Assembly: GCA_008933995.1 (NCBI GenBank)
Contig: WARS01000011.1
Span: forward strand, 18,373,516 to 18,437,515
Length of the DNA stretch: 64,000 nt
Source: Datnioides undecimradiatus
Taxonomy: Eukaryota; Chordata; Actinopteri; Lobotiformes; Datnioididae
Reading direction: 5' to 3'
A program made the position numbers and the translations under genes. How positions within the stretch are numbered: position 1 is the stretch's first letter; each line of letters opens with the position of its first letter. Shown piece after piece: positions 30,590 to 62,660 of the stretch. The notes under the pieces are model-generated. The model ran no database searches, was not told the origin of the DNA, and worked only from the letters and a program-made list of their open reading frames with translations.

Positions 30590-31347
30590 CCTCTTTCCCC
30601 CTTTTCTTTCAGTCGGGAAATAAAGTGCATTCAATTACTTAGCACCATTTCTCTCCACAGCAGGCTGCAGCTGATGTGTGTGGAGTAAGGGGACGGGCTG
30701 GCTAACCGCTGGGTGATGTGCGGTTTATGGATGACTTATTCTGGGCCTCTCAGGGAGTCTGTGTCTAAGTGTAGCTCCTTAAGGGCCGAATTAGCCCCCT
30801 GATCCACTAATCAATTTGGAAAGGGAGGGAAAATTACCACAAGGCCCATTATTACATGTTCAAAACAAAACTCTACAGGTTTACAGGTTAGAAACCCCCA
30901 AAAATCCATGTATAGCTTGAGCGGCTGTCTGCAGAAAGAGCTGAAAACGTGGTGTTCCTCATGAATTTACCCTTTCCTAACCACTGATAATCCATCATGC
31001 AAAGATAAATTCACGTCAGGTCGGTGATCGCAACCCGCGGCAATTACGCTCAGGTACAGAAGTGTGCGAACGTCTTTCCTGACCTGTATAAATCATATCC
31101 TGTGGCGTATTTGAAGTATTATCATGCTATAATGAAATATTCAAATGCGGCCTGCCCGCTTCCAGCACGATGGAGCAGGTAAGTCTGTAATGATGACATA
31201 ACGGCCTGGGAGGAATAAATGGGATTCATGGGAAATGAATCAGGGTCTGCAGGACTCTGGGTGTGACGGATGAGGCCAGAAAGTGGGTCAGAACCGCAGG
31301 TTGGTTGGCTGCACAACTGGGCCGAGACACAACGCCCGGGGCAATGA
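30590..31347 (-). repeat. Inverted duplication, outer island, left copy
   Basis: Pairs in inverted orientation with 61809-62660. Two strong islands are present. Island 1 (30714-30836) pairs with 62373-62497 and contains a perfect 33-base run (30788-30820 with 62391-62423). Island 2 (31080-31347) pairs with 61809-62082 and contains a perfect 53-base run (31262-31314 with 61848-61900). By hand, about 20 differences occur over roughly 245 bases of island 2. The 245 to 290 bases between the islands could not be aligned. A weak third match lies near 30597-30640. The pattern suggests selected non-coding elements retained after an old duplication. Open frames run through both copies, but similarity continues past their stops, so this is not a protein. 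Confidence 0.88.
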
Positions 31348-31656
31348 AGAAGTGCCTGCGCTCTCCCTGCACTGTTTTCTCGTTAACATCGCCGACTCTT
31401 GCATCCCTTCCTTTCTTCTAAAAGAAACCTTACCGGAGACGGAGCGAACGTGGGCAACACTGACCCCTCTGAAAGCCTGGATACATAAACTCCTGGAGAT
31501 CTTAAACCTGCACCTTCTCAGAGCTGGACTCCGAAGGAAACACCTGACAGCAGACGGTGCTCTCGCAAAGATAAACCAATAAGTGAGTCATGCATTAAAC
31601 ATGAACTGCTCAGTTTGTGCCGTCCCTGAGAGTTGAGGCTTTTGAAAGGAACTCAT

Positions 31657-31733
31657 TCATATTTTAATCACACTGGAGGTTCAATTAATCATTGCACGGT
31701 TTAAGGGTGAAATTGATGAATATTCAGTTGCCA
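31657..31733 (-). repeat. Inverted duplication, second island, left copy
   Basis: Pairs inverted with 61423-61498. Shared words are CATATTTTAATCACAC, CAATTAATCAT and ATGAATATTCAGTT, in the same order and at the same spacing. The core contains homeodomain-type sites. It lies about 300 bases inside the outer island in both arms, so the collinearity holds. Confidence 0.8.
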
Positions 31734-33814
31734 AGTGAAACGACTTCTGACCCCGGCTACTTGCACTGGTTTTAATCATACTCCTGCATGGCGCGCTTCA
31801 TCCTGCCGGTTGTAAATCTCGGAGGAGCGGCGTCGAACCGCTCAAGGTTGCTTTTGTATTTCCATTTATTTGCGGAAACATGCTGGTTTTGTTTCATGGG
31901 ATTAAAAAAAAAATATAGTAATCTAAAAATAGAAACGTGACAGCTATATTTTTGGCAACGCTGACACAAAGAGGCATGAATAAAGGAATTTGGCAGCACG
32001 CTTCATCTTCACCCTCTATATTCAGACGAGCCGATCTTTAACCAGATGCCATCTAATATCTGCATTTTTATGAGGTTCATCGAGACAGATGACGGCGAAG
32101 AATCTGGTTTTGCTGCTGACGTGCACGGTTTTACTTGCCTCTGTTTGCCTCTGACATGGGGTTCTTCATTTGGGACCCCCAAAAAGGGCATTTTACACAC
32201 ACAACTCCTATCATCCCATAACGCAGCGTTGTGCTCACCATGCTGTGGACTATCAGTCCACTGGAATCACCTCATATCATAAAACAGCCTTTCGATCAAC
32301 ACTGATCTTAACCCGACAATCATGATCGCAGCTCCCCAACCTTCTCCCCTCGGTTCCTGTCTGACAGCATGTGTGTATATAGAACTACATTACTTTATTT
32401 ACTTGTTCAGTTCAGTATTTTTCTACAGGCAGTGCTTAAAAACCTAAATGAGTCTCTTCAGGTCATTAAAGCAGCCTCAAACCAACGCAGAGGAGATTGC
32501 ATTATCCCTCTCATTTCAAAAACATCACATGGACCTCACAAACATCGACTGACATTAAAAGCCTTACCTGAGTAATGAAACAGACGCATTTAAACACTAC
32601 GATTACTTGCCCTTTGTTATATATGTTTTTATTATTTTCTTCTCCTCCGTTCAGGGTCAAACTGTTCAAAGAATACCCGCCTGTACATGCGCCGTATACA
32701 TCATTCCCTTTGTTGTGCTCGGACGGGAATGTGGGCTGTGACGGAGGTTGTGCAGCTAAGAGGAGAATGTATTCAAATAATGAGAAGAAAGCACGTTGTT
32801 GTTGTTTCTGAGAGGTGGAAAGCTTTAAAGCTGCGTGTCCTTGGCCTCTTTAGACTCGGTTATGGAGGTTTTTCCTTGTGGAGAGCTCGTAGTTTTACTA
32901 TAACGACGGTGGGTAGGGTGTTGTGTGTACCTAACTGAGCAAAACGCAACAAACATTATATTTTAGACAGATCTTCAATAATCTGACAGAATCCTTTTAT
33001 AGACACCCCATAAACTCTGTTTTTACTTATCTTTTCCAATTATTCTTGGAGTTTTCACGTACACAACGAGGAGAATGAGAAAGTCTGCGATGTAGGAGGG
33101 ACGGTTTGCTTCGGACAAACGGTCAGAGGGCACCGTTTCTCCTGCCGCACTGATCCTTTGAACCGATCCTGTTATTTTTCACAGAGGAGGAATCCGTCTT
33201 AGTTCCACCGACGCCGGCGGTCAAAGTGACATCAAGGACGCACGCGGTCGAACAAGGTACACGGACAATAAGACCTCGCCGCTGAGTGCGCGCCGACCGT
33301 GCAGGACGCGAACGAGACAACGCGCTGGCTGCCGGCATTCGTTCTGCTGTTATTGAGGGAACAGCTATTGTGGATGCAAACAATGTGGCTCCTGCAGAAC
33401 TCGACACGTAGTTTCAGTGACAGATGTCAGAAACAGGTGCGCCAGGTTGGTCTCAGTGGTCACATGGTCAGCCCGGCTGCTTCTGGATCAGAGAGTCGTG
33501 GTGTTGAATGTGGCGTTCCTCATGGAAACGTTCTCGGCCCATCTTCTTTTCATTTCCAGTCTCACTTGGAAACATAATTAACCATCATCATGTAAATTAA
33601 CATGTTTATGTGGTCGATACTCATTTGCACATCTCGGTGTTACCAGATGACCAGCTCTCTTAAGGACTTTTAAGATGCCCAAGAGCTGCAGGAGAAGAAC
33701 CGCAGTCAGGGTTTGGTGGCCTTAGCAAACAGATTAAAACTAAGATTACAAACCCTGGATTATTAAAACATCTCTTTTTAATCTCAGGAATATTGCCAAA
33801 GTCCACGATGACTT
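31734..33814. other. No gene seen; inside left arm of the inverted duplication
   Basis: I could not align this to the right arm apart from faint similarity just inside the second island. No gene or defined element is seen. The 78- to 94-codon frames have no domain. Confidence 0.5.
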
Positions 33815-34112
33815 CGTGCTTAGCACCTCGCCTCACAGCGAGAAGTTCCCAGGTGCGAAGGTCCTGTCCGGGTCCTTTCTGTGTTGAGTTTCCACGTTCT
33901 CTCCTGTGTCTGTGTGGGTTCCCTCCGGGTACTCCAGCTTCCTCCCACCACCCAAAAACATGCATGATATGTGAACTGGGAACTCTAAATAGGAGTGAAT
34001 GTGAGTGTGCATGAGTTTGTCTGACTCTGTGTGTCAGACTGGTGACCTGTCTTGGCGATGCCTCTTGGCCAGTGACTGCTGGGATAGGCTCCAGCACCCC
34101 CGCGACCCTGAA
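33815..34112 (+). mobile_element. tRNA-headed SINE with L2-like body, truncated copy, plus strand
   Basis: Matches the body of the better preserved minus-strand copy at 35648-35962 and general teleost repeats of this type. The order is a short TTAGCACCTCGCCTCACAG head, TCCGGGTACTCC and CTTCCTCCCACC in the middle, and GCTGGGATAGGCTCCAGCAC near the 3' end. The GGATGG tail is missing. The family name is from memory. The 145-codon minus frame across it is a shadow of the repeat. Confidence 0.75.
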
Positions 34113-34860
34113 AGTCAGATTTATTTGTTTATTTAACCTCAGAAAGTTGCTGAAATACTCACTCGTGCCCTTGTTTCCAGCAGTTTTGGCTATCGTAATT
34201 CCCTGTTTTACTTAATAACCTAAGAAGCCTTAAAGAAAACTGCAGCTAGCTCCATTAAAATCACTGAAGATACTGCATCAGCTAACTGTATCTCCATGAA
34301 AAGACTAGGAAGTCGGTTTTAGAGCCTCAAATGACCTTCCTCCACCCTGCACCAGAGGTTTTCTATTCACTTTATCTTCCAGCCGGATCACCTCTGTCAA
34401 ACTGTTCCTTATGTGGCCCATAAAGTGACCAGTAAAGGCGTCTTCTGTTTCACTGCGTCTACACTGTGCAACTCAGTTAATATTAATGGCGGGCTCTTTC
34501 TATTTACATGTCCGTAAGTTAAGCGCTTCTCTTTTAAATCTAACTTTTAAATGCAGTAACTTTAAATAATTGTTTTCATGTTTGTTGGTTTAACAGTTTC
34601 TTGCTTTATTGCTGTACTTTTTAATCATGCGAAGTTGTTTTATCCTTTATTTTGCACGGTTGCATGAAAGAACCACATAAAGAGAGTTCAGCTCTGTGGG
34701 TTTTTGAATTTTCACTTAAATCATCTTTACTAAGTGAGAGCATTTTCTGACCACTTCAGGTAACACACTACAAGGCTACAGAGGGAGGTTAGACTAAATA
34801 ATAGCAGGTTAGAATAAAGGTACACAGGATTTAAGGGGGTGGGGGTTTATATATTGGCAA
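34113..34860. other. No gene seen
   Basis: AT-rich unique sequence inside the left arm. Nothing supportable. Confidence 0.55.
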
Positions 34861-35230
34861 GTAAATGACGAGCTAAATAGCCAGTCACATGCCAGTGGAG
34901 TCCTCCAACAAAACGGACGGACATTGATCTGCCCTGTTATGGATGAATAAGGGTCGGACTAATCTGCTTACACGCACCATCGCCCCCGCTGATTAACCAG
35001 GAATTAAATATGCACTGGGTTGCGCAGTCCTGCACAAGAACATTTCAGTGGGTCGCTTTTTTAAGAACCACTGAGTGTCTCCAGACAGCAATTTAGCGCT
35101 TTAGCTCCCCTGGCCACGCTGGCTGGGAAATTATGGAGCCGCGCTGCTGAGCGCTGAAACATTAAAGGAGGATCCTCAGAGTGTCTCGCTGGCTGCAGAG
35201 ACCCTGAAATGCAGATGAGTCCATATGGCT
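34861..35230 (-). repeat. Inverted duplication, third island, left copy
   Basis: Pairs inverted with 53180-53510. The best segment is 35084-35115 against about 53288-53321, differing at two of about 34 bases. A weaker segment at 34921-34980 pairs with about 53418-53490 and shares a GGACAGATCAATG-like word. Because the core could also belong to an interspersed teleost repeat, membership in the duplication rests on its inverted orientation, its mirrored position and the second matching segment. Confidence 0.65.
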
Positions 35231-35633
35231 GCGAGAGGAGAGGATCCTCAACCAGGACAGGATGGAGAGCGGAGAAAGAGGGTGGAACAAATACAGAAGC
35301 ATTCACTCCACACGACTTCATGCTCAGGTCCAAATTTCCGCTTGAATCTGAATCCCTTCTGTGGCTGCCCATTTCTCTTCCCGGGATGCGAAGCACAGCC
35401 GAAGCCAACGCGAGCTGACAGCGATGTTGAAGAGGTTCAGAGGGGCTGAGAGATGAAAGATGTCATATTTGTCTTTGGACCTCCTCTTCTTAGTGTTTGT
35501 TTCGAGCATGTATTTTGGTTTCTCTCTGTGTTTCGGTTGCATCAAGGCAGCTCAAGTCAAGGCTTTCTCTGTATCTCTGCATCTTGTTACAGAGCTAATG
35601 TAACTCGTCCAAACCGAAACACCAAAGGCAAAA
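35231..35633. other. No gene seen
   Basis: Short overlapping frames without domains. Confidence 0.5.
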
Positions 35634-35976
35634 CCCTTTAGACTCTCCATCCATCCATCTTCTGTGCCCGCTTTATCCCTTTGTGGGGTCACGGGGTCGC
35701 TGGAGCCCATCCCAGCTGTCTCTGGGCGAGGGCGGGGTACACCCTGTACGAGTCGCCAGCTCATCGCAGGGCAAACACATAGACATACAACCATCCACTC
35801 TCACATGCACGCACTACGGGCAATTTTTATAGCAACCAATTAACCTATATACAGGAGGAACCCATGCAGACACAGGGAGAACACACAGGGAGGCCCTGAG
35901 CCGACTGGGAGTCGAACCCAGAACCTTCTTACTGCGCTAACCACTGCACCACCGTGCCGCCCCCCTTTAGACTCTC
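35634..35976 (-). mobile_element. tRNA-headed SINE with L2-like tail, complete insertion with target-site duplication
   Basis: The element proper runs about 35648-35962 on the minus strand. Its 5' end reads GGCGGCACGGTGGTGCAGTG, followed by an A-box-like GTGGTTAGCGC and a B-box-like GGGTTCGACTCCC. The body contains AGCTGGGATGGGCTCCAGC, and the 3' end is a (GGAT)n tail. A 14-base direct repeat, CCCTTTAGACTCTC, flanks it at 35634-35647 and 35963-35976. This is the expected target-site duplication and fixes both ends. Such elements have no coding capacity and move with the machinery of a partner LINE (L2 type is inferred from the tail). The exact duplication suggests a fairly recent insertion. 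Confidence 0.88.
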
Positions 35977-38570
35977 ATGCACCAATATCTGAGTTGTTCC
36001 TCCAACCCTCCTGATCACTTTTAGCCATTTTAGCCATTGATCTAACATATCAACATATTAGCTAACATATTTAATTAAATCCAATCTAAGTAACATCGGC
36101 GTCCAACCTGAACCAAACTGAATGTTTACTTTACGTGGACTTTGCAAAGACTAGCACATGTCAGCTGTGCACTGGACAGTTTAAGGAGAACTGTGCACTG
36201 TTGCACTTCACTGCAGAACGCATCATCCTGCAAATGCATCAGGACGATGCATGCACATAGTCGCGTACATCCAAATCATGTTCCTTTACAACATTTTGGA
36301 TCGTCCCTAGCCGACTTGTTCCAGAAAACATGCATTTCTACATTATGTGCACATTTGAAATCACTGTATAGTCGATAAATATATTCGGTGAAAGAACAAG
36401 AAAATGATTGTTTTTACAGTAACATAATGAAACACACACACACACGAACAGAATTTCTTTTTTATTTACTTAATTTCTTTTTATTTTTATTTTATTTATA
36501 AACGACCTCTACTAGAGCTCCAATCCAATTTTATTCCACATTTCCCGGGTGGAAATTGAAAAAATAAATAAAAGTTACCCCCGTGCATCTTCTCTATGTG
36601 CCATACAGATTTGCATTGGTTGGAAAAAAATCAAATCTGAATTGCAACGCTTTCAGCTTCATTGTGAAAACAGCCTGAGAGAGCCACAGAGGCAGAACTT
36701 AGCAGGAGCAGTCTGCCTAAAATGCAGTTCTGCTGCACAGGAGAGGATCCGCTGCCCCTGGATACTGTGACGTGTCCGCTCCAGTTCCTGCGCTAAACAC
36801 AAGTGGCAGAGGTATATGTGTGTGCGCAGGTTTGTGTTAGTGTGCCTGTTTGTGTTAGCATCCCCGCGTGTGTCTTCAGACATGTGACTTTCCCGTTGGT
36901 GTGCATGGGTTTTGTGTTTGTGTAGGTGATGGAGAGTCCACTCCAGCAGGAAGGCAGAGGGAAATGCATCACTCTAAATAACAGTGCTTAGAGTTGGCAG
37001 CGAGGGAGGGAAGGGTTGCCGAGCCTTTGGGGGATAGTAGGCGGACAAATGCATCACATGCTCTTTCCACAGAATCCACGGACGGCAACCTTTTGCTCAT
37101 ATAAAGACGATAATGAATCAGAGGCGAGATGGATGTCAGAGAGAGACACTTCCCCTCGCCCTGCTCTCCAGCCCAGCAGGTGGTCTCCAGCTTGTGCCTT
37201 GTTTGTCTCTTGGCCCATCGCTGTAGCATGAGTCATTGCCCTTAACATGAAGAGCAAGACAGATGAAACCAGGGCGCATGCATGCATACATACAAGCGCA
37301 CGTTAGCAAACACACACCTCCACGCCGGCCTCCTGCTCGCATCAGGAGCATCGCTTCCTCAGAACACAGCTGCTCCCAGAGGAGCCGAGGGATTCTGGGA
37401 GCTGCTTCTGCTCAGCAGCCGCTGAATTTCAAGAACAGAGGGATGAATAAATAGAAAATCAATGGAGCCTCATGGCGCGAGGATGCAGGGCTATTTTCCC
37501 AATTACGGCAAACGTTGCTCCAAGTCAGTGGTGCATATGAGCCCTTTGCTGAGCCACCTGACATTCAACACAGCGCCTTTGATGTTTCCAGATCTGGTCT
37601 GAGGTTCAATAGCAACTGTGTTGTTTCTAGTGTTAGCACTGGTTTTGCTCTATGAACCCACAAACTTTTGAAATTCAATGAAGTTTAGCTTTTGGGCAGT
37701 TTTAAGTAACAAAATGTACAAATATGAAACTGAAGAGATTGACATTTACAGAACGTTCTGATGTAAAATCAAAAAGAAGGAGAGAGAAACATAAAGTCTG
37801 GACTGGATTTATGTTTCTTAGTTTTTTATGCGGCTGGTTTTGTTTTGTTTTGTCTTGTTTTTCTCTTGCCTAGCTGCACAAGCAACCTGACAAACATCCG
37901 CTGGGGTAAAAGTTGCACCACAAAGGTCATGTCGCAGACACAGCTGCAGCACCCTGGACAACATTGAAACCGTATATTTCACCTGTATGTGTGAGTGAAG
38001 ATGCTCAGACACCAGCTGAACAGTCGAACACGTACCCGTCCAGTCAGAGGCTCGGGGGCTTTGAGGTTCCTTCCATCGGTTATAGAAGAACATTTCATTA
38101 CATTGGGTCATTTACTGCAGAATATATTTATTGTCATCATTACTGTTTAACTTAAAACCTTGAAGTAGACCCTGGATCCAGATCTGGATTCTCACAGTTT
38201 GAGAACCAGCTTCATGTCACGTTTCATCAGAACTGCGATCACTGGCCTCTCACTGATATATTTACCAATGTATCAACGCTATAGTTTCACATCATAGCCA
38301 ATATGAAAGAGTAGAAACTGGTTCTGAACTGAAATGGAGCGGCTGAGACATGAATAATTAGTTGGAGAACTGATGGCGGACATGTCATTTATATGTTAGA
38401 TGATGTTCGGCGGCGTGCTGCTGCGGACCAGTGTGCAGGAGGATTTCAAAACCTCTCTTTCCCTGGGTTTGGATCGGTTTGAATAGTTTTCTCCTGCTTT
38501 AAAGCACCATATGTGAGGAGAGTCACTCTAAATTGGCACTGACAAACAATGTCTCTGGGGATTCGATTGA
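35977..38570. other. No gene seen; possible regulatory patch at 37440-37620
   Basis: Unique sequence with a short CA run near 36434-36446. The patch at 37440-37620 is repeat-free with CCCAATTACGG and GGTGCATATGAG words. It may be regulatory, but I found no clear partner in the right arm. Frames up to 97 codons have no domains. Confidence 0.45.
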
Positions 38571-39600: not shown

Positions 39601-39617
39601 CGAATTAGCGGTTTCCC

Positions 39618-41539: not shown

Positions 41540-41735
41540 GGTGACTGTCCGCTGCCCCGGCAATTAATGAGAGAGGTCTCGAGAGCTGCTGAGGCAGATC
41601 CCGAGGCAGGGCTGTCCACTTTATCTTAGCGTATATAGAAACATAGAGCACAGGCAATGATTTAGTGCCTGGGCTCCTGTGAAAGGTCACAGCTATTCAT
41701 ATTACAGTGAAAGACCTCCCATGAGAGCGTCGTAC
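41540..41735 (+). repeat. Inverted duplication, inner island, left copy
   Basis: Pairs inverted with 48222-48416 along its whole length. The best blocks are GTCCACTTTATCTTAGC within 41611-41630 (a perfect 20-base match to 48317-48336), CTGAGGCAGATCCC at 41589-41602, GCAATTAATGAGA at 41560-41572, TGATTTAGTG at 41658-41667 and AAAGGTCACAGCT at 41682-41694. The order and spacing agree. GATA-type, homeodomain-type and nuclear-receptor half-site words are the parts retained, as expected of an enhancer. Confidence 0.88.
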
Positions 41736-42526
41736 TGTATCACTGAGTAACATGTACGGCTAACGCCTTTCCATCAGCTCGCTCACAGCTGCCTGAAGGT
41801 GGGTCTGAAGCCACGGTGCAATCCAGCAGGGTTTGTGTTTGTGTGTGTGTGTTTTAGTGTTTGGAAGCAGCTAATTATGAAGCGTTTGATATACTGTAAA
41901 TCCAGTTCTCCCCCCAAAAAAAAAAAAAAAAATGATTGGCAGCTCAGAAATTAGAACAAATTATTACACAGCTTTGTTGTTTTGATTGCCAAGTGAGCGC
42001 CCGCTGAGGTCTGAACAGACTGAATCCAAAAAAACTGAGACCTTGGTGATTTCGTTGATCTGGCTTCAAATTAACAGGCATCAACACGTTTTTTTTAAAA
42101 AAAATGGGAAAATTGGTGTTGGCGCACACTGAACTACACAAAGGACACAAAACTTTACGGAAGAGCTGAAACTTGTAAAACTAAACATCAAAATGATGCG
42201 CGTCACGCGAGCATCTTTTACCCCAAATAACACGAACTGAAAAATAAAAAAGAAATTCAGTCCTTTTGAAAAATATCACTCCCGGTATAATTTGTTAAAT
42301 ACACAATTAAACCTTTTATAAAAGATCTATTGTTGTTTACCACACTAAATTAGGAAAGCAGTTTCAGTTAGAGGCTGATGCGCGCCTTATTTACATAATT
42401 ATTATTATTATTATGTCACTTTGTCTGAAACCTGTTTTTCTTAAGATTTCATCTCTTTTATATATTTAATCATTTTAATTCGCTAATGTCGTTTTAAACA
42501 TCACAACATATTCGATGAATCTGGCG
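41736..42526. other. No gene seen; left side of central spacer
   Basis: A TG-rich stretch at about 41834-41850, an A run at about 41915-41932, and an ATT run near 42399-42413. No gene. Confidence 0.55.
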
Positions 42527-42712
42527 TCAAATTGGGCGCAGACATTCGTGGTCCCTGGAGGATGAACCCTAATGACTTTGATGATCCACTAGACCTTCCT
42601 CCAAGCGCCACCATGAGGCTGACATTTGTGGTTTCTAGTGAAGTTACTCACTGGATCTACATGAAACTTCAGACGTGTGTTCCCCTCGTAGCTTTTCATG
42701 ATTCCCAGAGTT
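42527..42712 (+). repeat. Interspersed teleost repeat fragment
   Basis: Phrases such as GCAGACATTCGTGGTCCC, GGATGAACCCTAATGACTTT, AAGCGCCACCATGAGG and CATTTGTGGTTTCTAGTG closely resemble a repeat I recall as frequent in teleost intergenic DNA. Its class is unknown to me. The 60-codon frame across it is not a gene. Confidence 0.6.
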
Positions 42713-43634
42713 GATCCGGTCTAGTCCCATCATTGGGTACGTTGGCCTTGCTAACTTTAGCACTTAGCTGAGAGTACAGAAGTGCTTGGGTGGCAAGAGA
42801 CTGTTTCATGTTGAGTTTTGATCTCATTTACACAAATGTCTCAAACGGTGTTCAAACCCAGAGAGCATCTGCAATTTGATTCAAGGTAATGGTCCGTTTC
42901 AGTCGGTCGCCCTATCACCTTTAGCCCTCTGCTTGCTGTAGTTTACAGGGAAACCCAGGAAACAACAGACCTTGTGTCCAAAGTACCTGCCTCTTTTCTT
43001 AAAATGTATGAATGAATCATGGATTGATGTTGAATCTTAAACTAATTACGGTATCTACATTTCTAAGGGCTCGTTATACACAGTGTTTTAATTCTGAAAT
43101 CCATTTTTTAACCACTGACCTTGTTGTTAAACTGCAACGAAACCGCACCTCTGCTTTGTCTTTATACACACTATGTGATTAAATTATCACCGCTCTGAAG
43201 GACTGCGCAGCCCATTTCTTGGAGAAACAACAAGCTGGATTAGGTGAGACCAAGACACAGCGGTACCTGATCCCAACCATATTATTTTCATGCTGAGAAC
43301 CCAATTATCTGACTGCTGACGCTGACGCTGACCTGACCTGTCAGCCCTGCTTCGTCACGTTTCCCTTTTTTCCTGGGGAAGATTTTTTTCCCTCCCTCTT
43401 TCATTTGTGCATTTGTGAGTTTTTTGTCTCCCTCAGGTTGCGCAGACTCAACGGGAAGCGGATTTGACGGTGACCTGCGCAGCGTTGCCGTCTCGCTAAC
43501 GGTCCTCAGACACGAGCCAAAAATAATCTGAATGTCTGGAGCTGGTTAATGAGGCACTCCGCGGACAGGCTCTGTAATGCTGAGACCACCCGTGGATTCC
43601 TGGGTACAGCCAGTCACTGCTGTGCTGGGGAAAT
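42713..43634. other. No gene seen; central spacer
   Basis: Unique sequence. The part at 43430-43620 is repeat-free and might be regulatory, but it has no convincing partner across the axis. Confidence 0.5.
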
Positions 43635-44022
43635 ACTGGTATATGGAAGCTGATCCAGAGCTGGAGGTATGTTGAGGCTTTCTTTGGGTGCGACCAGGAT
43701 GGATAGGATCAGGAATGAGCACATTAGAGGGACAGCTCTTGTGAGATGTTTCAGAAGATAAAGTTAGAGGCCAGGTTGAGATGGTTTGGACATGTTCAGA
43801 GGAGGGGCAGTGAATATATTGGCCGAAGGATGCTGAGGTTAGAGCTGCAAGGCAGGAGGTCTAGAGGAAGACCAGAGAGGAGGCTTATGGATGTAGTGAA
43901 GGAGGACATGAAGGTAGCTGGTGTGAGGGAAGAGGACACAGAGGATAGGGTGAGATGGAAGAAGATGATTCACAGTGGTGACCCCTGGAGGGAACAGCTG
44001 AAAGGAAAAGAAGAAGAACAGA
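43635..44022 (+). mobile_element. 3' end of an RTE-like LINE, truncated
   Basis: The plus frame at 43746-44027 encodes the typical C-terminal end of a non-LTR reverse transcriptase polyprotein, with LRWFGHVQRR, GRRSRGRPERR, MDVVKEDMKVAGVREED and WKKMIHSGDPWREQL. Just upstream, in another frame, GATRMDRIRNEHIRGTAL is the preceding conserved part, so one frameshift lies near 43755. The element ends in a short GAA-rich tail at about 44006-44018. The reverse transcriptase and endonuclease parts are missing, so this is a 5'-truncated, dead copy. RTE (Rex3/BovB-like) is my best clade guess. The class, a non-LTR retrotransposon, is firm. Confidence 0.85.
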
Positions 44023-45522
44023 GTTGAACCATGATCCATACTGAATCTGACTCACCACAGATCGACAGACGCGTACTGTGTTTTGCTATGAAGCCCAGGG
44101 ATTGGTTGAGAAAAAGCTGCGAGGTCACATGAAGGGGAAATGTTGAATCCTGACCAATCAGACAGGGATTCTCACAAAGTGCAGTGTCAGTCATGGCAAA
44201 CAGCAAAGCGGTAGAACATGAAAATCCTCCTTATAATGGATTCAACTGCATGTTTGCAACGGGCATGGCCGGCGGCAACATGGCCGCCAGTGCTGAGCGC
44301 TGACCTGAGTTTCAGAGTCATCACAGCGGCAGACGTATGAAGATATGAAAGCTTCGTGCACCGTGTGGAAGAGCTGGACAGGAGGTCAGACACAGGAACG
44401 GCATGGAGTACCTGTAGATTTTCAAAATAAAACACCCTGCGCAGACTCACGATCAAAACAGAAAAACATTTTGTAGCTTATTTACCAACGATACAAGCAC
44501 GAAAGTCAGGCGAAATGCGACCAAATCAACAAAATCTGAGAGGTAAACAGTTTTTTTTATTCCTTTTTGCTTTCATTTTTGAAAAGCAATGCAATCTGGG
44601 TTTTGTGATCAATTACGTCCCTAAAAATCACCACAACCTAACTAGTAGTTGGTTAATAAATTAGTTTGAAACATTTTATTTTAAGGTAGATTTGTGCCCA
44701 GTTAATTAGACAAAGAGCAAAAAATAAAATATACAGTGTGCCACGCAAACATCAGATGATAAGGGAGTCAGTGCTCCTGAAATGTGCAGGAAAATGTTGC
44801 TTATCAGAGCAAAATAGAAAGTTCCCACCCAAGCATGAGATGCTGCATCATTTCATGTGCAAACTAAGCAATCTAATTTAAAGGGTTTTATGAGGTCTTT
44901 TATAGGTCCAGCAAGTTTCATGATCCGCGAACCATGAAACCCTTTCAAAACTCACAGTGGAATTTCCAAACTGCATGGCTGTGCATGTGAAATTAAGTTT
45001 TCCCTCCCCCGCCGCCTGCGTTTCTGAACGCGCAAGGTTTTCATCTGACAGGCCCGCGGTGCCGCCGATGCTCTCTGTGACACCGACAGATAGCGCCAGC
45101 CAGGTTCAGCCACACCTGCTGGTGTTTTGTTGCAGTTTTTCAAATCATTTAAAGAACAGAAAGTTCTTTAAAGATCAATTTTCTCTCTAATTCCCGTGGA
45201 CTAGAAAGCGGGGAGTCGGCGAAGAAAGCGAGAGACGAGGGGAAGGGAAAAAGCGCGTCTTTGCGGGGAGCCTCTTTGAAAACTTCGACCCGTCGATTGG
45301 CAGGATGCGATGATGGTGTGTGAGTGCCGAAGCGTGCTCCTGGGTTTTAGATAATAGTGGGACTGGGTTCCTCTGAATCAAAGTTTAAAAGCTGTTTGTG
45401 CAGTTTTGTCGCAGGCTCAAGCTGAGTGCACTATCAGCTCAGTGCAGACACTTACATGGTCACATTCACACGTCTGCTGGCTTTTACAAATACCTTAACA
45501 TTTCGTACACACAGACTCTGCT
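44023..45522. other. No gene seen; contains the duplication axis
   Basis: The midpoint of the inner islands falls near 44980. I see no palindrome or gene at the axis. The surrounding sequence is unique and mixed, with a GC-richer part at about 45000-45110. Confidence 0.5.
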
Positions 45523-45542
45523 ACACACACACACACACACAC
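45523..45542. repeat. (CA)n microsatellite
   Basis: CA run of about nine units. Confidence 0.9.
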
Positions 45543-45649
45543 AGATATTGACATAACGTGATGCAGTAAACACTGTAAAGGTTTGCTTTTCGTTTTGCTT
45601 CCAGGGCACGCCTTGCATACAGCACATTACACTGTAAAAAAAATCTCAG

Positions 45650-45799
45650 TTCATCTACCATGCATGTTTTTGGGTGTTGGGAGGAAGCCGGAGCAGCCAT
45701 GAGGTCCTGGCTCAACACAGAAAGGCCCCAGTTGGGGATCGAACCTGAGATGCTCTCGTTTGGAGGTCAGGTGCTAACCACGAAGCCACTGTGCCGCCC
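45650..45799 (-). mobile_element. 5' fragment of the tRNA-headed SINE, minus strand
   Basis: The right end reads (minus strand) GGGCGGCACAGTGGCTTCGT, then GTGGTTAGCACCTGACC and a B-box-like AGGTTCGATCCCC, as in the copy at 35648-35962. The body continues through GGCCTTTCTGTGTTGAGCC, GGCTTCCTCCCAACACCC and ACATGCATGG, and then stops. The L2-like 3' half is missing. It is an independent insertion of the same family. Confidence 0.8.
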
Positions 45800-46784
45800 T
45801 ATTTCAATTCAGCTCAATTTATCATTTAATGGGGTATGAAAATGAACAATTTCTAACTGAAACTAAAACTGGAGCAATGATCTGTCTCAAGCACAACAAG
45901 TCCTCCAAACCGAACGATAAAAGTCGTCTGTCGTTGCCTCTTTCAGTCGGGACGACTTCACTCATCAGTTCCCGACAAAACACACGTTTTAGGCCTTCAA
46001 ACAAGCAATCAGCTGTTTGTTTAGTATATTTAGATTTAAATCGTTCAGCCTAATTGTTTTTTAATATCTAACCAAGAAAAATCACGTTTAATATTCTATC
46101 GAAAGGTGTTATAACAAGAAATGTTAGATAAAGTTATATCACGACTTCTTTTAAGTGTCCTTTTACGCAGTTTTGCTTAACTCGTTGAGTTTAGGGATCT
46201 TCTTTAGGCGAAGCGTGAACCTCATGACCTTCAGAAGGAAAGTCTTTCCCACCCCTGAGCAAAAGAAAGGAGCAACTTGACAAAATCGCTTTCCTGTGTA
46301 TCTCGTCAGTTATATCTCACCGGCAGGCCATCTCAGATGACCCCGGATGACTGATCTATATCCCATGAAAGAGGCCGCAGAATAAATGGTGTCCCGTGCT
46401 CATTTAACAGGCAGCTGAGATCGATGGCAGCCGATCAAAGAAGGAGATAAAACAGGAGTGGTCAATCGCTATGGAGCCTTTAATGTCGACTGAAGGTTAC
46501 CCCATTACGGCTTTGCTTTCAGTCTGCAGAATATGAACGAATCTTGGGTTTCTGTTGAAATTCTCCACAAAACGCACATGTTGCTCTGAAAGGGCACGTG
46601 TTGTTTGGTTGGGCTTCCATTATAAACAGTGTCAAACTGTTAAAACCCTGCCGCACTATCAACCATCTGCGCTCGCAGTGTAGATGCTGCAGCCTGAGGC
46701 GCTACCAAGATCTCAGTGCAATCAAGACTTTTTCTTACCAGCATGTAGCCTCGTTTAGCTGCTGTGGAATTACCCTCATATAAC

Positions 46785-46786
<2 letters not shown>
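45800..46786. other. No gene seen; possible regulatory patch at 46290-46560
   Basis: The patch is repeat-free, with GATGACTGATCTATATCCC and CATTTAACAGGCAGCTGAG words. Only faint, unconvincing similarity was found to 43540-43560 on the other side of the axis. Confidence 0.45.

Positions 46787-46822
<36 letters not shown>
46787..46822. repeat. (TG)n microsatellite
   Basis: Perfect TG run of about 18 units. Confidence 0.95.
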
Positions 46823-46826
<4 letters not shown>

Positions 46827-48221
46827 CCTGTGTCTCATGGTCATTACATTAAATGGATTGCAAAGCATTCCTGAGAGGGTTTTCCTCTTAAAAGCCGGAG
46901 AGTTGTCCCCGTTTTATGGCGTGACGTGAGTGGTGCTTTGATGAGCGTGCTGGGAGTCGACTGACCCTCCTTGCTGCCGTGAACGAGACTCCTACCATGA
47001 AGCAGCGGAGGAGCAGCAGAAGCTGAATGTCAACGTTAATAGCTTCATTATCTCCACGGCATCTGATTCGTTCACAAAAGCTGATCTGTTTGAGTTAAAT
47101 TGCCCTAACAGCTTTCTATACAGACAGATCTGTCTTGTTTCACTATGGTGACTGAACTCCTGCATACGACTCTTTCCCCGACACCTTTAGACCAAACGAA
47201 AACTTTAATCAAGTAGCTGGAATCTGCAAAACGTTCCAAACATGTGCTGGACTGTAAACTGGAATGAGTTATTTAGGCTCTTGTGTCGACAAACACGCCC
47301 TGGATTTCGACTCACCATAGAGGGCAGCATCCATGCTAATGCCAGCAGAACGGGACTGATGCCGTCCGTGGGCTGGCGACTATTTGTCAAAAAGCCAATT
47401 TAAACCAATTTTGGGAGCTTTGCTACCGTCTCTTCCCGTTCCTCTCTCACAGGACTCATTTTACTGCCAATCTTTTGTTCGACAGGACTGACTCCTCGCC
47501 TGGGTTGCAGATCGTCAGTCTTGACGGGGTTTGTACCTATCGTGTCGTCTTTTCGCGCAATCATATCGATTTGCCATTACCCAACAATTATCACTGCATT
47601 TCTACATATGTAAAAATACCTAATGTTATAAAAATATAATTGGCCTTTCTATGGCGTATATAGAGTAAATGGTACCAGTACTAAGCTCCCATGAGTTCTT
47701 CTTCTTACACAGGCATGTTTCTGACGTTTTTGAAAAAGCATTTCCAGTGCAAACGCTCTATGAAAACCTGCACAGTCTACATTTACGGCCTTGGAAGATA
47801 CTTTCAAACTCCTGCCAAGAGAAGAAGGCAGCGACAAAGCAGCACATGCTGTCGGTTGGTTCTGAAAACTTTTTGTTTCGTTCACCTTTCATGATTGTCA
47901 GGCTCTTGCCTTTCCTCGTCTCGGAAAAAGGGTAAATTGCCAGCGCCTGTGTTTGTTTTAGCCTCGCTCGTTGTTTCATCTCTGCTGATAGCTGGAGTTT
48001 AGACGTTAGCGAGGCATGTCTGCACCTCTACAACTGCAAAAAACAAAAAGTCAAAGTACACTTTGTGTCTGAACGATGCATTGCCTAATGCGTGTCACAG
48101 CAGATGGTTGTAAAAGCTGTAACTTAAGTGGGAAGAAAACTAAAGCGTGTCAGAAAAGAAAAATGTTAATGTTAGCCATGGAGCATGCAGAGTCAGCCCC
48201 CATTACTCTTTGGTGGCTTCA
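46823..48221. other. No gene seen; right side of central spacer
   Basis: Unique sequence. Overlapping frames at 47649-47979 on both strands have no domains. Confidence 0.55.
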
Positions 48222-48416
48222 GTAGGGGAGGTCCTGCGGTGTGGTACAGGAAGCTGTGACCTTTCTAGGAAGCCCGGCCACTAAATCACTGTCTAGCCTG
48301 CAACGTTTCCATGTAGGCTAAGATAAAGTGGACAGCTCTATCCGGGGATCTGCCTCAGTGACTCCTGAGACCCATCTCATTAATTGCTGGGGCAGCAGAT
48401 GCAGGGGCAGTCACCT
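48222..48416 (-). repeat. Inverted duplication, inner island, right copy
   Basis: Inverted partner of 41540-41735. The perfect 20-base block is at 48317-48336, the TCTCATTAATTGC block at 48375-48387, GGGGATCTGCCTCAG at 48344-48358, CACTAAATCA at 48280-48289 and AGCTGTGACCTTTCT at 48251-48265. Spacing differs by only a few bases over nearly 200. Confidence 0.88.
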
Positions 48417-50765: not shown

Positions 50766-50791
50766 ACACACACATACACACACACACACAG
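50766..50791. repeat. (CA)n microsatellite
   Basis: CA run with one T interruption. Confidence 0.93.
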
Positions 50792-53179: not shown

Positions 53180-53510
53180 AAAGAATCTCCAGACGGGTTC
53201 CTCTCTGCAGCCGGTGACATGCTCCGAGGTGTCTAACTCCTTGTTTCAGTTTCCTGCAGCTCGGCTCTGTGGCTGCTCTGCCGGTGTGGTCAGGGGAGCT
53301 AAAGTGCTAAATTGCTGTCTGCAAAGCCCAGTCACTTAGTCTTACATACGCGCGGCTAAAATGCTAAGAGCTGCAGCCCGGTGCGTGTTAATTCTTCTTA
53401 AATCGACAGCAGCGGCGGCGTGTATAAGCCGCTTATTCTGGTCCTATTCACTGCAGGTCTGTTACACCGGGACAGATCAATGCCCCTCTGTCACACGTGA
53501 GCGATGTCGA
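53180..53510 (+). repeat. Inverted duplication, third island, right copy
   Basis: Inverted partner of 34861-35230. The best block is at 53288-53321. A weaker block near 53418-53490 follows at a matching distance, which supports a long segmental match over an isolated repeat hit. Confidence 0.65.
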
Positions 53511-56500: not shown

Positions 56501-57655
56501 CATTGAATTAATAAGAAATGATGGATTTAATAGAATCCGCGTGGGTCTCTCACAGGATTTATGCTGTTAAGGGCTTCAAACTTTTAGAACATGTCCAGCG
56601 TTATGCTAGATGTTACTTATAGACGGCAAATCAAAGGATATAAAATGAAATCAGAAATGGACTTAAGCTCTAATGGGGCAACAGAGATGACGTGTTTATC
56701 CTGGTTCCTACCGTCTTTTTATTTTATTCTACCTGTTTTCCGTTTTACACGTCAGCCTGACGTTCGTCTCAGTGAATGGACCGGGGGTTTTCCTGGAGGT
56801 TTGCGGAGCTGCTGGCGAAACTGAGATTGACTCTCATTCGGGTTGAGAATGCACATTGTATTATTCTGTTTTGCTGGTGTGCATGGTACTCGCTGTCCAC
56901 CCCGCAGCATCAATAACTCAAAGCTGTGAACAGAAGAACGAGCTGAGCTCCTATTGGTCGGCACACTTTGTGGACTCGCGTGCACAAAAATACAAATGCG
57001 CTCATCTTTCCATCAGGACGTCACAGGGCGACCCAGATGCTGCGTCAGTTGTCAGCCGTGATACACGACACAGGGTAAAACAATCAATTGCGCCGCCCCG
57101 CACCCTTCGTCCGCCCCGACGCCATGCCTGCGGCGTCGCCAAGGTTGTGGAAGGATCGTGGTCACGCTTTAATAAATGTTGGCTGTCGGCTGGAGACACA
57201 AAAACACCAAAACAGCTGTCCCACATATCAGGGTCCAGGGTGTTGTTGATGCATCCATCCGTCAGCCTCCTCTCTAAACGGGGCCTGCTCCACAAACCGC
57301 CCTGACGTCTTCGGGTTCAGCTCACTTTCTCAACCCTCTCATTGGTTCCCTCGGACTTTGAGCCGTCCAATCGTCATTCAGGAGCGCGCCTTGAGAGTCC
57401 ACCTGCTTATTGTCTCCTGCTCTTACCCTGACTGAGACGTTGCTGCCCCATTATTGTTGAGAATAAGTCAAAGTGTTGCATGCCTGGACCAGTTATCTCG
57501 TACAGGTTTGTTCAGAGACGCTGCTTTGGTGCTACGGCGTTTAAACAGTCTGTGTTACTTTTCACAAACAGGTTTCAAGTTATAAAACTCATAAAACATG
57601 AATCAAAAATTGATTCAGGGTGAATTTTATCTGTAAATATTAAAGGTGTGCATCT
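53511..57655. other. No gene seen; inside right arm
   Basis: A long stretch without a supportable gene or clear mobile element. Parts at 53980-54480 and 54840-55080 are repeat-free with enhancer-like words (for example CGCTTAATTACGG near 54061). The 97-codon minus frame at 57002-57295 and the 149-codon plus frame at 56856-57305 lie over each other in a GC-rich patch and match no family I know. An AAT-rich run lies at 56341-56368. Confidence 0.45.
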
Positions 57656-58125
57656 TTCCATCACTAGATGCACGGGCTACAACATGATTCAGGGACAATT
57701 CGGTACAATTCGATCTCGATACAACCCTTTATTTCATGTCGATATTCATTTTCTTTTATGAATTACAATAAGCCAATTCTATAAAAATGGCATAGCTTAC
57801 CTTCAAACAGATATTTCATAACAGACCAGGGAGTCCTCAGTGTTTCTGTTGGTTAGTGTTGTTGTTTGACAGAGGAAATGTTTGTGATTGCCCCGTAGGC
57901 AACGCCACGCCAACGTTACTGTCTGACCTTCGAACTTATGCGAGTTTGAAGCCTCTCTGCAGAAGCAGCAGCCGCTTCACTCAACCGATTCGTAACTTTA
58001 AGATCGGGCCGTCAACGGTTCACAGCACATTTAGATCAATCCAGAAAGATCTGAGATCGGTGTGTCGTATCTTAAACTTTAAAACCGATTTCTGATTCAT
58101 ATCAGTTCATTTTTACACCCACAGT
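57656..58125 (+). repeat. Dispersed repeat, copy 2 (related to 4959-5270)
   Basis: The longer of two copies. It starts around AGGTGTGCATCTTTCC and includes CAATTCGGTACAATTCGATC and CGATACAACCC. It then follows copy 1 from 57751 onward, and ends near TTTTTACACCC. The ends AGGTGTG and (reverse complement) GGGTGTA could be decayed terminal inverted repeats, which would fit a hAT-like MITE. This is a guess. The 79-codon frame inside is not a gene. Confidence 0.6.
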
Positions 58126-58689
58126 AAATGTCTGTAGCTCTAATTTACCGGTTGCAAATATCCACAAATCCATAAATCCAAGAGACCCACTCGTCTGTGC
58201 ATTTGAAACTGAGCTTCAAAACAAATGGAGGTGTAGTTTATGAGTGTCGTTCACATGCACAGCGGCTGCAATATACCCCGAGTCTCTTTGTTTCCCGACA
58301 GATTTCCTGTTAGTGTTACTCCTTTATTCCATTGCTGCAGCTCAGGATAACATGAGGCGGGCTCATGATGATAACTGGAAATGAAAGCTGCACCTTCCTT
58401 TGTCTTTTATAGGGAAAATAATCCATACGCTGCAGCTCCGATGAATATTAATGCAACATTTTGGTCAGTTAAACCTCACTGTACTGTTTTTACATTTTCA
58501 TGTGCGTCACATATTCAAAATTGTCGAATACCAAACTTCTCTGTTGCCTGCTGTGTCTTTTAACACACTGCCAGTCAGTGACTTTCCTCTCGCCTTGGCT
58601 CTGTTGGATTTTTAAGCTGTTAAATTATGCATATGTCTGTTTACTGAGAGTAAAGCACCTGTAATTCAGCCTCTTCTGCTTTCTGTGAC
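58126..58689. other. No gene seen
   Basis: Unique AT-rich sequence. Confidence 0.55.
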
Positions 58690-59055
58690 TGCACTCAGGG
58701 TCTGTTCCCGACCCCTGAAACAGGACGAGATTCATGTTTTTGAGTTTCAGTGGGTGCTTCGGTTGATTTCCTGTTTTATTTCAAAAAGGTTTTCCGCAGA
58801 CTTGTTTCCTGTGTCTGAGTAGTTCATTAGTTTCACCTGGGTCTTGTTTGCCTGCACTCCTCTAGTCTATATATGTTGTGTCACTGCCTCAGATCTATGC
58901 TTTTTGGCTTCTGCCTGAACGCCCTGCGTGCTTGCTATGGACTGATGTTCTGGATTTCCATCTCTGCTCCTGGTCTCCACCTGCATTTGCCTCCATCTCC
59001 TCCACTTCCCTGTTCCTCCGTGTGGTTTGCGACAGCGGGCGACATAAAACAACGA
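58690..59055 (+). repeat. Interspersed-repeat relic, possibly a solo LTR
   Basis: The stretch has a TATATA-type word downstream of a TTAGTTTCACCTGGG and TTGCCTGCACTCC phrase and is pyrimidine-rich after it, as I recall for LTR-type repeats in teleosts. It has no coding part and looks old. The class assignment is weak. Confidence 0.3.
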
Positions 59056-60643
59056 CTGTTTGACAGGAATGAATAAGAAATTTGGTCAGGTCATCATTTG
59101 ATAATCATGAAATGTGCTTTTACAGAGCAAGCCTTTGGTTTCAGCTTCTCAAATGTGAGGATTTGATGGATATCATGTAAACTGAGACGAAGATATTTGC
59201 ATTTTCCACTGTTGTCTTTTGTTTTCTGTAAAACATTAAATTGAATAAATTAAGAAAAAGAGAGAAGTTGACAGTTATCACAGACGTAGTACTCCCACAA
59301 ACATAAAATGTACTTTCCTTTGTCATTTAATCACTCATCCACTAAGCAGCTGCATGTTTTGTGTACGCACCTGTCCTTTCGCTTCAGTCCTCCCCCTCTT
59401 GACTCCACTATGCATTAGCTCTTTCAGTAAAAACTGTATTTAACAGTCCAATGGATGACCTTGAGCTTCTTGTGAATTTGCTCTTTTGTGGCCTTTTTCC
59501 ATTAAATGTATTTAATCAACACTCGTCCATGTTATCAAATGTTGAAGGGCAGATTTAATGGGAGATGAAGCACCATACTGTTTCCATTAAAAAGCCATCA
59601 TTGTTATTAAAATTGTGACATTTGTGACCTTCATCTGACACGAGACACGCGGCAAATTACATTAGATTAGAATACGGAAAAAGACCTAGTGACGAGAGCG
59701 ATAGGTTCATTTAGGTTATACCAATTCAAAGGCTTTTAAATATCAGTCTTTGAATTGCAATCTCTGTATTTACTATTTGACAGCACTGCCTTATCTGAGC
59801 TGAGAGTTTTAAGCAATAGACTTGAGATGTATATTCGATTCATAGGCTACAGGCAGACACAAAACTGTCTGAATAAGGACATTTTCAGCAATAAGTTGAT
59901 ATCTAATTATGTGAAAATCATAAATATCACCAATCTAGAAGGGCAAATTAAGCCAAAGCTGATGTATAATAACTACAGATAATCTTTAAAACGCATAAAG
60001 ATGAACATAAATTGGTATTTGGCACGCGCAGGGGCTTGAGCTGACAATGAGGCTGGTCAGAAAACAGCGTGCGAGAGAGTTTTAATAGCCACCAGCGAGT
60101 GACAAAGACAATCTGAGAGGCAATCTGAGATCTGAAACGTAAAAGTAATGAGAAGTGATGTGTGGCTTCGTCTGCAAAGTCAGCGGGTAGGAGCAGCTGT
60201 CACCGTGTTACAGACACGCAGAACGTTTTCCTCTCAAGGAAACGTGAGACAAACAATTCGATCAGGACCCTCGACACACAGGAGAACACAAACTCTTTCG
60301 CCAAAGTATGTTAAACTCTCTCCAGTCAGATTTTAGTGGCGGTTCTGCTTTGTGGTTTCTTTTTCATGGTCACCCTCGTCGTGCTTTTCATGCCCGCTTG
60401 TCTGACGGTGCAAGAAACAAGAGACCATCAGAAAAGCTGTAAATAATCCAGCGGCGTTCCTCCAAAGCATCTTCTTCACTTGGAGGTCAAATTAAGAAAA
60501 TGTTATTACTTGTTCCACAGAAAAACCAACCTTTCTGATCAGCTGACTTTGTTTTCAGAGATCTAGATACCGGCAGTTAACTCCTCTTAACCAATAAAAA
60601 CAATGGCCGAGGCTAGCAAACTGAGACAAGTAGTTATAAACCA
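59056..60643. other. No gene seen
   Basis: AT-rich unique sequence. Short frames only. Confidence 0.55.
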
Positions 60644-60772
60644 TTGCAAAAACAATCTAGCTAGCTCACCTAGCTAGCTTGCTAGATTGTTTTTGCAACC
60701 TGGGAAATGAGCCCATCGCCGTTAGCTAGCTCACTTAGCTAGCTATAGGTGAGCTAGCTAACGGTAATGGGA
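60644..60772. repeat. Two adjacent perfect inverted repeats (TAGC-rich hairpins)
   Basis: Hairpin 1 has perfect 18-base arms TTGCAAAAACAATCTAGC (60644-60661) and its complement (60682-60699), with a 20-base TAGCT-rich loop. Hairpin 2 has perfect 16-base arms CCGTTAGCTAGCTCAC (60720-60735) and its complement (60750-60765), extendable outwards to 60713 and 60772 with two mismatches. The two share TAGCTAGCTCAC words, so the whole could fold in several ways. I do not recognise a known element. Confidence 0.8.
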
Positions 60773-61422
60773 CATTGGAAACAAAAATGGCGACCGGGCT
60801 ACATGAAGCGGTCAAGAACTCTGCTAATATGGACTCCAAAGGACAAATGAATGAAGTGAAATCAAATGGCAACCCAGTATGAGCATAAGGCCAATAGTAA
60901 ATAACAGAATTTGGTCTTAAACAACAAAGTAAAATGCCCTTGGTCCGTTGTTTTTGATGTAATTCGCCACAGTCATCGCTCTCAAAGGCACCGCCTCAGC
61001 TTCCTCCTCTTTACCGCCATATTAACTCCCAATATTCAACACCAGGCGCAAGTGCACGAACATTTTGAAGGGCAGGTTGGAGCAAGTCGTGCAGTCGGGG
61101 GTGTCCCAGCCTCACACTTCTAAAGACAGACCGCTCTGATTCTCACCCGTCAGGAAGTAGCGCGTGGTGATTTATGACTCTCCGCACTGAGCGAGAGCAG
61201 GTAGTGGGGATTTCATTCTGGCGAGCTGTATGGCGTCTGCCTTTAAACTAATTTCTGCATACCGAGGTACTTTCACTACCTGCGCCTGTGTCATTTTTCT
61301 TAATGACTGTTAAGGGGAGGCTGGGTGAGCAAGGCAAACAGGCGCCGCTCCACCACAGGAGCCAGTGAGCAGAATATAATTAAGATGAGGGGAGAGGAAG
61401 GGTCGGGACGAAAGACCTCAGT
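60773..61422. other. No gene seen; inside right arm
   Basis: The part at 61140-61420 is repeat-free and may hold further weakly retained duplicate sequence near the second island. No gene. Confidence 0.5.
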
Positions 61423-61498
61423 AGGTAACTGAATATTCATTGCAATCACACTAAACAGCTCGATGATTAATTGCAGGCCTGGTGTGATTAAAATATGA
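61423..61498 (+). repeat. Inverted duplication, second island, right copy
   Basis: Inverted partner of 31657-31733. AACTGAATATTCAT lies at 61427-61440, ATGATTAATTG near 61462-61472 and GTGTGATTAAAATATG at 61482-61497. Confidence 0.8.
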
Positions 61499-61808
61499 CT
61501 GACTTAGTGGAAAATTCGGAGCTTAGTCAAAGGTGAGTAAATCGAGTTTCTTTTGATTAACAGATGACACTTCCTCGTTCTAGCTGAGAGAGAGACAGCA
61601 GGGGTTTTGGAAGTGGTTGCAAGCAAGCCGTCGGTGGAAACTTGAGAAAAATTATTTTGTTCCGCAGACAAAACCGAAATAAATGATCCCTCAGTGTCCG
61701 TTTTTTATCATCGCAGGGCCTGAACGTGGTAAGCCGGGATCTATAATTGACCCCAGGATATGTGATCAGAGCGGCTGAACGCAGGGATAGCCTGTTCGCT
61801 GATGCCTG
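61499..61808. other. No gene seen; spacer between retained islands
   Basis: Not alignable to the corresponding interval at 31347-31657. The 111-codon minus frame at 61557-61892 runs into the island and has no domain. Confidence 0.5.
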
Positions 61809-62660
61809 ATTGCCCCGGGCGTTGTGTCTCGGCCCAGTTGCGGCCCAGTGCAGCCAACCAACCTGCGGTTCTGACCCACTTTCTGGCCTCATCCGTCACA
61901 TTGAGACTCCTGGAGGCTCTGATTCATTTCCTACGTATCCCATTTATTCCTCCCAGGCCGTTATGTCATCATTACAGACCTACCTGCTCCATCGCGCTGG
62001 AAGCAGGCAGGCCGCATTTGAATATTTCATTATGGCACAATAATACTTTAAATATGCCATTGGATATGATTTATACAGGTCACGGGTGGTGCTCAAATGT
62101 TTTTCTAACCTGATCACAAAGACCTGACACCGTGATCATTAACCTCAAAAATGATCGATGTCTGTGCCGGAGATCCGATTTCAGATTTCAGACTTTCTCC
62201 ACGAATACAGAGAAACACCTCAGCTGTGTCCCATATATCACGCTGCAATAATAACAGGGAACTCTGACACAAATGGCCCGCTCCTTATATTGGCATCTAT
62301 TTCACACAAGCAGCGAATTATAAGCACCAGGAGGAATATATTTCCTCCTTGACTCCAAGTGGGAGAACCTGTGTTAATTTTCCCTTCCTCTCCAAATTGA
62401 TTAGTGGATCAGGGGGCTAATTCAGCCCTTGAGGAGCTATGCACAGACAGAGGCTCCCTGCGAGGCCCCAGAAGAAGTCATCCATAAACCGCACATGTCA
62501 GCCCTGTTGCTCGCTAACTCCCAATCACCCACTGGCGAGCCCGCAATGCCACTTGCGATGCCTGTTGCTAAGGTGCTTTGAGCGTTCTCTCCTCAGTAAT
62601 TAAAAGTAATTGGATGGCGAGTTCCCGCTTGAAGAGGGGAAGAGGAGCTGCGGTCATAGC
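61809..62660 (+). repeat. Inverted duplication, outer island, right copy
   Basis: Inverted partner of 30590-31347. The strong islands are 61809-62082 and 62373-62497, with unalignable sequence between, and a weak match near 62600-62650. A small internal duplication of GGGCCGCAACTGGGCC type near 61831-61848 is present only in this copy. The open frames at 61802-62113 are not coding, because similarity between copies ignores frame and stops. Confidence 0.88.

Follow-up and report, generated by a model that had tools for sequence, protein, structure and literature searches.

Paired islands in mirrored order point to an ancient inverted duplication of the gene desert between mgat4c and eif4g2 in Datnioides undecimradiatus

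The window described here is a stretch of 64,000 nucleotides from Datnioides undecimradiatus (contig WARS01000011.1 of assembly GCA_008933995.1, positions 18,373,516 to 18,437,515, forward strand). It is part of a gene desert that separates mgat4c from eif4g2 over about 190 kb and in which a series of islands occurs twice, in inverted orientation and in mirrored order. The contig, labelled C334, is 19.5 Mb long. Flanks of 100 kb per side were added to the window, which gives a region of 264 kb for self-alignment, and the genome searches covered 581 Mb. All coordinates follow the numbering of the window, extended below 1 and above 64000 for the flanks.

A codon scan of the flanks, together with family searches, gives the gene order alx1-rassf9-nts-mgat4c, followed by the desert and then by eif4g2. 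The left neighbour of the desert belongs to the MGAT4 family (Pfam PF04666) and is named mgat4c from the surrounding genes; it is encoded on the minus strand, so that the desert adjoins its 5' end. The right neighbour is EIF4G2 (PDB 3l6a). An ALX-type homeobox exon is found at C334:18192208-18192348. The peptides that flank this exon are those that we take to be the N- and C-termini of alx1, the RASSF9-like and neurotensin-like exons recognised by eye to the left of mgat4c are presumably those of rassf9 and nts, and we take the order alx1-rassf9-nts-mgat4c to be that of human 12q21 and of tetrapods. The paralogon pairs around the MGAT4 loci include RASSF9/RASSF10 and ALX1/ALX3, according to PMC12616123. 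An Iroquois cluster was considered for the locus and rejected: among the best 150 of 201 candidates, the six strongest TALE homeobox matches are on three other contigs, and the sole match listed for C334 is a weak one, at a distance of 8.5 Mb.

The initial annotation of the window described four groups of islands that pair in inverted orientation and in strict mirrored order, around an axis near 45 kb. Self-BLAST of the window recovers all four pairs (C, D, E and F) near the positions given, each inverted and in mirrored order. In the case of pair C, the stretch recovered is 30716-31345/61809-62496, and the outer edges that had been proposed, 30590-30715 and 62497-62660, fall outside the alignment. 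Self-BLAST of the 264 kb region yields three additional firm pairs, A, B and O, in the same mirrored order and around the same axis. Pair O, whose longest identical runs are 28 and 20 bases, enlarges the chain from about 39 kb to about 137 kb, at 18.328-18.465 Mb of the contig. The surviving arms extend from the axis about 90 kb leftward and about 47 kb rightward, and both of them retain recognisable copies of at least seven elements, whose sizes are about 90-690 bp. The seven firm pairs, a weaker and tentative one called W, and the central spacer are as follows.

-45414 to -44865 (L009:4586-5135) and 91250-91770 on the minus strand (L016:7250-7770): the two islands of pair O, both outside the window, inverted and in order (182 bits).
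19679-19844, plus strand: left island of the tentative pair W; its partner, 80404-80575 on the minus strand (L015:6404-6575), is outside the window (59.7 bits, in order).
27416-27649, plus strand: left island of pair A; its partner, 66166-66381 on the minus strand (L014:2166-2381), is outside the window (103 bits).
29411-29560, plus strand: left island of pair B; its partner, 65155-65329 on the minus strand (L014:1155-1329), is outside the window (84 bits).
30716-31345, plus strand: left island of pair C (71% identity over 691 columns, 363 bits), with two strong cores, at about 30716-30835 and 31080-31345, and identical runs of up to 52 bases.
31650-31738, plus strand: left island of pair D (about 75-76% identity, 64 bits).
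34913-35201, plus strand: left island of pair E (65% identity, 108 bits).
41548-41720, plus strand: left island of pair F, the innermost pair (76% identity, 128 bits).
41721-48225, no strand: central spacer with the axis near 45 kb; it holds a fragment that resembles a long interspersed nuclear element (LINE) at 43711-44008 and a relative of a high-copy repeat at 45644-45793.
48226-48399, minus strand: right island of pair F, from self-BLAST.
53202-53491, minus strand: right island of pair E, from self-BLAST.
61418-61505, minus strand: right island of pair D; the gap to pair C is 303 bases here and 304 on the left side.
61809-62496, minus strand: right island of pair C, from self-BLAST.

The central spacer shows no significant match across the axis (best E value of 1.7). 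The LINE-like fragment that it contains has a reverse-transcriptase-like open reading frame, recognised by eye, which has no match in Pfam; a copy of the fragment, with 78% identity, is present at -44449 to -44197. Two short near-perfect palindromes (60644-60698 and 60712-60771, 89% and 84%), located in the right arm between the islands of pairs E and D, are adjacent, about 14 bases apart, and are possibly a small foldback element.

The initial annotation would have been refuted if the pairs had turned out to be scattered high-copy repeats without any mirrored chain, which is not the case. Eight genome queries, which span all seven firm pairs, each match the query and its mirror partner only (for pair F, the query was the right copy, found in two places only), while the repeat at 33804-33981, used as a control in the same search, gives 40 scored matches among 497 candidates. 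This search scores the best candidates only and skips very common words, so that faint third copies could escape it. Since the firm pairs are two-copy, the control repeat is multi-copy and the mirrored chain is present, the segments are low-copy and are not dispersed repeats. The query 19679-19844, from pair W, finds itself only, which means that its partner is below the sensitivity of the genome search.

The same results bear on the idea of a giant transposon, with the islands as its inverted repeats, either terminal or internal. Pairs C and D taken together do look like inverted repeats, each about 1 kb long and equally spaced, but other mirrored pairs are located both within and beyond them, no third copy was found in the 581 Mb searched, and ten open reading frames of the window have no Pfam family above the cut-off, the short LINE-like fragment being the only element of this kind inside. 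This explanation was already disfavoured, and it becomes less likely still because pair O widens the structure to about 137 kb; we consider it extremely unlikely.

The order of the pairs was evaluated by comparing the left side (-90 to 45 kb) with the right side (45 to 101 kb), which gives 16 pairs of at least 59 bits. Seven of them were dropped for touching a hand-made repeat list (multi-copy families and the repeat at 33804-33981), although some of these were in order. Eight of the nine remaining pairs are inverted, and all eight fall in one mirrored chain, which none of 20000 permutations matches. The ninth is a direct pair (4959-5249/57748-58042, 111 bits, 64% identity) and is probably an old repeat. 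With shorter arms and no repeat removal, the chain score is matched in 1 of 2000 permutations. As a control, the reversed sequence gives a best match of 46.8 bits among 53 matches.

The multi-copy families excluded from the chain are found around -80.9, -64, -8, 58.7, 65.5, 88.2, 108.9, 130 and 148 kb. The pair 33804-33981/45644-45793 was dropped as a member of the chain: it is inverted but breaks the order, and it belongs to a high-copy repeat. The pair 40463-40781/113486-113771 (66% identity, 113 bits) is likewise inverted and out of mirrored order, and was kept off the chain. The chain leaves out the following weak candidates that are in order: 9098-9219/82536-82655 and -33403 to -33342/87459-87517 (36.8 bits each), -28317 to -28272/85496-85541 (31.1 bits), 22756-22784/71447-71475 (32.6 bits) and 24560-24577/69566-69583 (28.3 bits). 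The controls in the corresponding segments reach 34-35 bits, and up to 55 in the outer segment. A direct-orientation local array at 108900-109890, in the right flank, has relatives at about -80900. In the flanks, a repeat of about 670 bp (-119087 to -118420 and 123658 to 124282) occurs in two inverted copies, 90% identical and about 243 kb apart, which looks like a young mobile element.

The mirrored order and the two-copy state indicate that a low-copy, gene-poor block was almost certainly duplicated here in inverted orientation, in ancient times. A large and old inverted duplication of gene-free DNA is what had been proposed for the window, and the chain supports it, with an extent well beyond the coordinates put forward then.

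The spacer between pairs C and D is nearly equal in length in the two arms, so that it can be compared directly between them. Its global alignment scores -31, compared to a mean of -43 for shuffled sequences (standard deviation 6.6, best of 300 shuffles -20). In a simple simulation (transition bias of 2.5, 10% indels), a score as low as this is reached by none of 150 runs when the total divergence is 0.8, by 19% at 1.0 and by 70% at 1.3. This spacer, the one that was tested, is therefore close to saturation, with about 1 or more substitutions per site. Neutral rates are of 3-10 substitutions per billion years per site. Combined with these rates, the divergence of the C-D spacer suggests that the duplication is at least some 50-170 million years old.

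Beside this saturated spacer, pair C has identical runs of 52, 43, 33, 32 and 28 bases, and its core is 90% identical. The contrast between the saturated spacer and the long identical runs is what purifying selection would produce if it acted on both copies; gene conversion restricted to the islands would be a less natural explanation. Gene conversion between the arms, which would maintain the similarity irrespective of function, as in the palindromes of sex chromosomes, deserves to be considered: the arms are inverted relative to each other, and the long identical runs adjoin spacer that cannot be aligned. However, gene conversion ignores the content of the sequence, yet the C-D spacer of 303-304 bp is saturated, whereas the neighbouring core of C and D are 90% and 76% identical. 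The lengths of other spacers also differ between the arms (1761 vs 836 and 7571 vs 14022 bases). We judge that gene conversion is a quite improbable cause of the similarity.

That the islands were kept by selection as cis-regulatory elements is probable in our opinion, and it has to be weighed against a coding or an RNA function. The codon scan revealed no coding gene in the desert. In six of the seven blocks of pairs A-F (C being split in two), the left copy is interrupted in every frame. For pair O, the coding check consisted of Pfam only, and four peptides have no family above the cut-off. A panel of 26 transcription factor and signalling domains has no match below an E value of 0.03 in the 264 kb, and nothing at 0.05 in the next 50 kb leftward. 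A hidden transcription factor gene in the desert, which had been envisaged, was rejected on these results.

Pair A is the exception among these blocks. A frame is open in both arms, and the mismatches between the copies are in excess in one phase (26 of 72 positions, vs 14 of 72 and 15 of 71), which is a weak hint of coding, perhaps in the past; gaps of 1, 4 and 8 bases disrupt the frame, and the open reading frame of 204 amino acids has no match in Pfam. This hint is relevant to the proposal that the inverted duplication originally included a gene which has since decayed, for example another copy of mgat4c where the right arm ends, the islands being leftover regulatory or exon fragments. The extent of the chain is compatible with this, since it reaches to about 45 kb from the 5' coding exon of mgat4c on the left and about 10 kb from eif4g2 on the right. 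On the other hand, the codon scan and the domain panel detect no gene in the desert, a tblastn search with the mgat4 exons detects no second copy in the sequence retrieved around the locus, and Pfam is empty for the peptides of pairs A and O. A decayed gene is an unlikely origin of the islands.

The islands could also belong to non-coding transcripts, as their exons, promoters or splice elements, with selection acting on the RNA; they would then be either long 5' non-coding exons of mgat4c or parts of an inverted pair of long non-coding RNA genes. The 5' end of mgat4c, on the minus strand, does face the desert, and both copies of pair C have a donor-like motif in common, GCAG/GTAAG in the left copy and GCAG/GTAGG in the right. 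However, 12 strand and block folding tests on the left copies of pairs C-F give z scores from -2.35 to 0.67 and no clear structured RNA, and Rfam detects only a tRNA in the window and nothing in the flank loci L009, L014, L015 and L016. Selection on RNA appears as improbable as a decayed gene. The tRNA in question is a tRNA-Asn (GTT) gene at 14610-14683, inside the wider left arm of a desert that is otherwise free of genes. An exact 22-base pattern of pair C is absent from the prokaryote contigs scanned, a result that is uninformative.

The explanation that we favour is that of a desert duplicated in inverted orientation, whose islands would be distal cis-regulatory elements, with alx1 as their likeliest target; we give it a probability of about 0.6. 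Most of the gene desert would have been duplicated head to head long ago, possibly by fold-back or template-switching repair, and a long stretch of the regulatory landscape of alx1 would have been copied in this way. Most of the sequence would then have drifted until it could no longer be recognised, or would have undergone separate changes in the two arms, the lengths of the arms diverging independently. Both copies of some elements would have been retained for reasons of dose, robustness or division of tasks, and the two mirrored copies of one enhancer array may act redundantly or split sub-functions.

Regarding the target, the chain is about 130-270 kb downstream of alx1. In mouse, the enhancer Alx1-DE1, in an intron of the neighbouring gene Lrriq1, contacts and drives Alx1 over a long range, as described in PMC13249048. 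The two cases have in common the long-range control of Alx1 from outside the gene, which for the present locus is a proposal. The published enhancer is upstream of Alx1, whereas the block described here is downstream, so that alx1 is a plausible but unproven target.

This difference in position is one of several observations that weigh against the explanation that we favour. As a target, mgat4c, eif4g2 or a more distant gene would do equally well. The islands appear to resemble conserved non-coding elements (CNEs), as judged from one genome, and conservation across species is the test that defines such elements. In the whole 264 kb, 56 pairs of at least 59 bits are found, of which 34 are inverted (10 of these being out of order) and 22 are direct; the pairs off the chain come mostly from a few multi-copy families, the copy number having been checked for some of them only. 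The hint of coding in pair A belongs here too, as do the three of the 12 folding tests whose z scores are between -2.0 and -2.35. The search for regulatory motifs was negative or uninformative: no CTCF-like site is found at a threshold strict enough that shuffled sequences also give none, no ALX-type palindrome is found in the 12 islands of pairs A-F (a plus-strand scan finds 3 and 1 in 106 kb), and no DR1, DR2 or DR5 retinoid site is present in 14 islands, DR5 being the type of site reported for Alx1-DE1.

The locus has similarities with several known systems. It may resemble a genomic regulatory block, with a developmental homeobox gene (alx1), unrelated neighbours, a large desert and apparently non-coding islands; this likeness is based on the gene order of one genome, and here much of the landscape is mirror-duplicated. 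Like an inverted segmental duplication or a palindrome, it has head-to-head arms, a mirrored order and an axis with a spacer, but it is so old that only islands can be aligned, and the arms contain no recognised gene. Segmental duplications of the human genome are reported to be depleted of ultraconserved elements (Derti et al. 2006, cited in PMC3862641).

Duplicated CNEs (dCNEs) are non-coding elements present in more than one genomic copy, as the islands appear to be. The copies that result from whole-genome duplication sit beside paralogous genes on different chromosomes. Here, a single gene-free desert on one contig holds both copies, in cis and inverted, with no third copy found, unlike the known set of McEwen et al. 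(2006), which comes from whole-genome duplication, as reported in PMC5728398; the same paper indicates that CNEs are mostly single copy, a subset having been duplicated via whole-genome duplication. A limited search of the open-access literature, with subscription papers outside its scope, found no description of a mirrored block of CNEs duplicated in cis, in agreement with the statement, made when the structure was first noticed, that no description of it was known. The words "inverted" and "local duplication" do not occur in the portion of PMC1896008 at hand, and the main text of PMC5585340 does not mention ALX1, MGAT4C or RASSF9. Duplicated CNEs as such are known (PMC5728398); what would be new, judging from the sequence, is that CNE-like elements are duplicated in cis and mirrored.

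A stronger proposal is that, in this fish lineage, most of the regulatory desert beyond alx1 and mgat4c consists of an enhancer array duplicated as a mirror image, that selection has maintained the two halves for a very long time, and that the mirror layout itself matters. The arms could fold onto each other as one hub or, alternatively, the same array could be shown in both orientations, to alx1 and mgat4c on one side and to eif4g2 on the other. We regard this as rather unlikely.

If the islands are regulatory, the cis duplication of such a block, with its elements retained in both copies, would be an internal experiment, in which each pair reveals the bases that have stayed alike since the duplication. 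The two arms could be deleted separately, which would test the redundancy of an enhancer array, its sensitivity to dosage and its dependence on orientation. The likely target, alx1, is a gene of face development and of the frontonasal skeleton.

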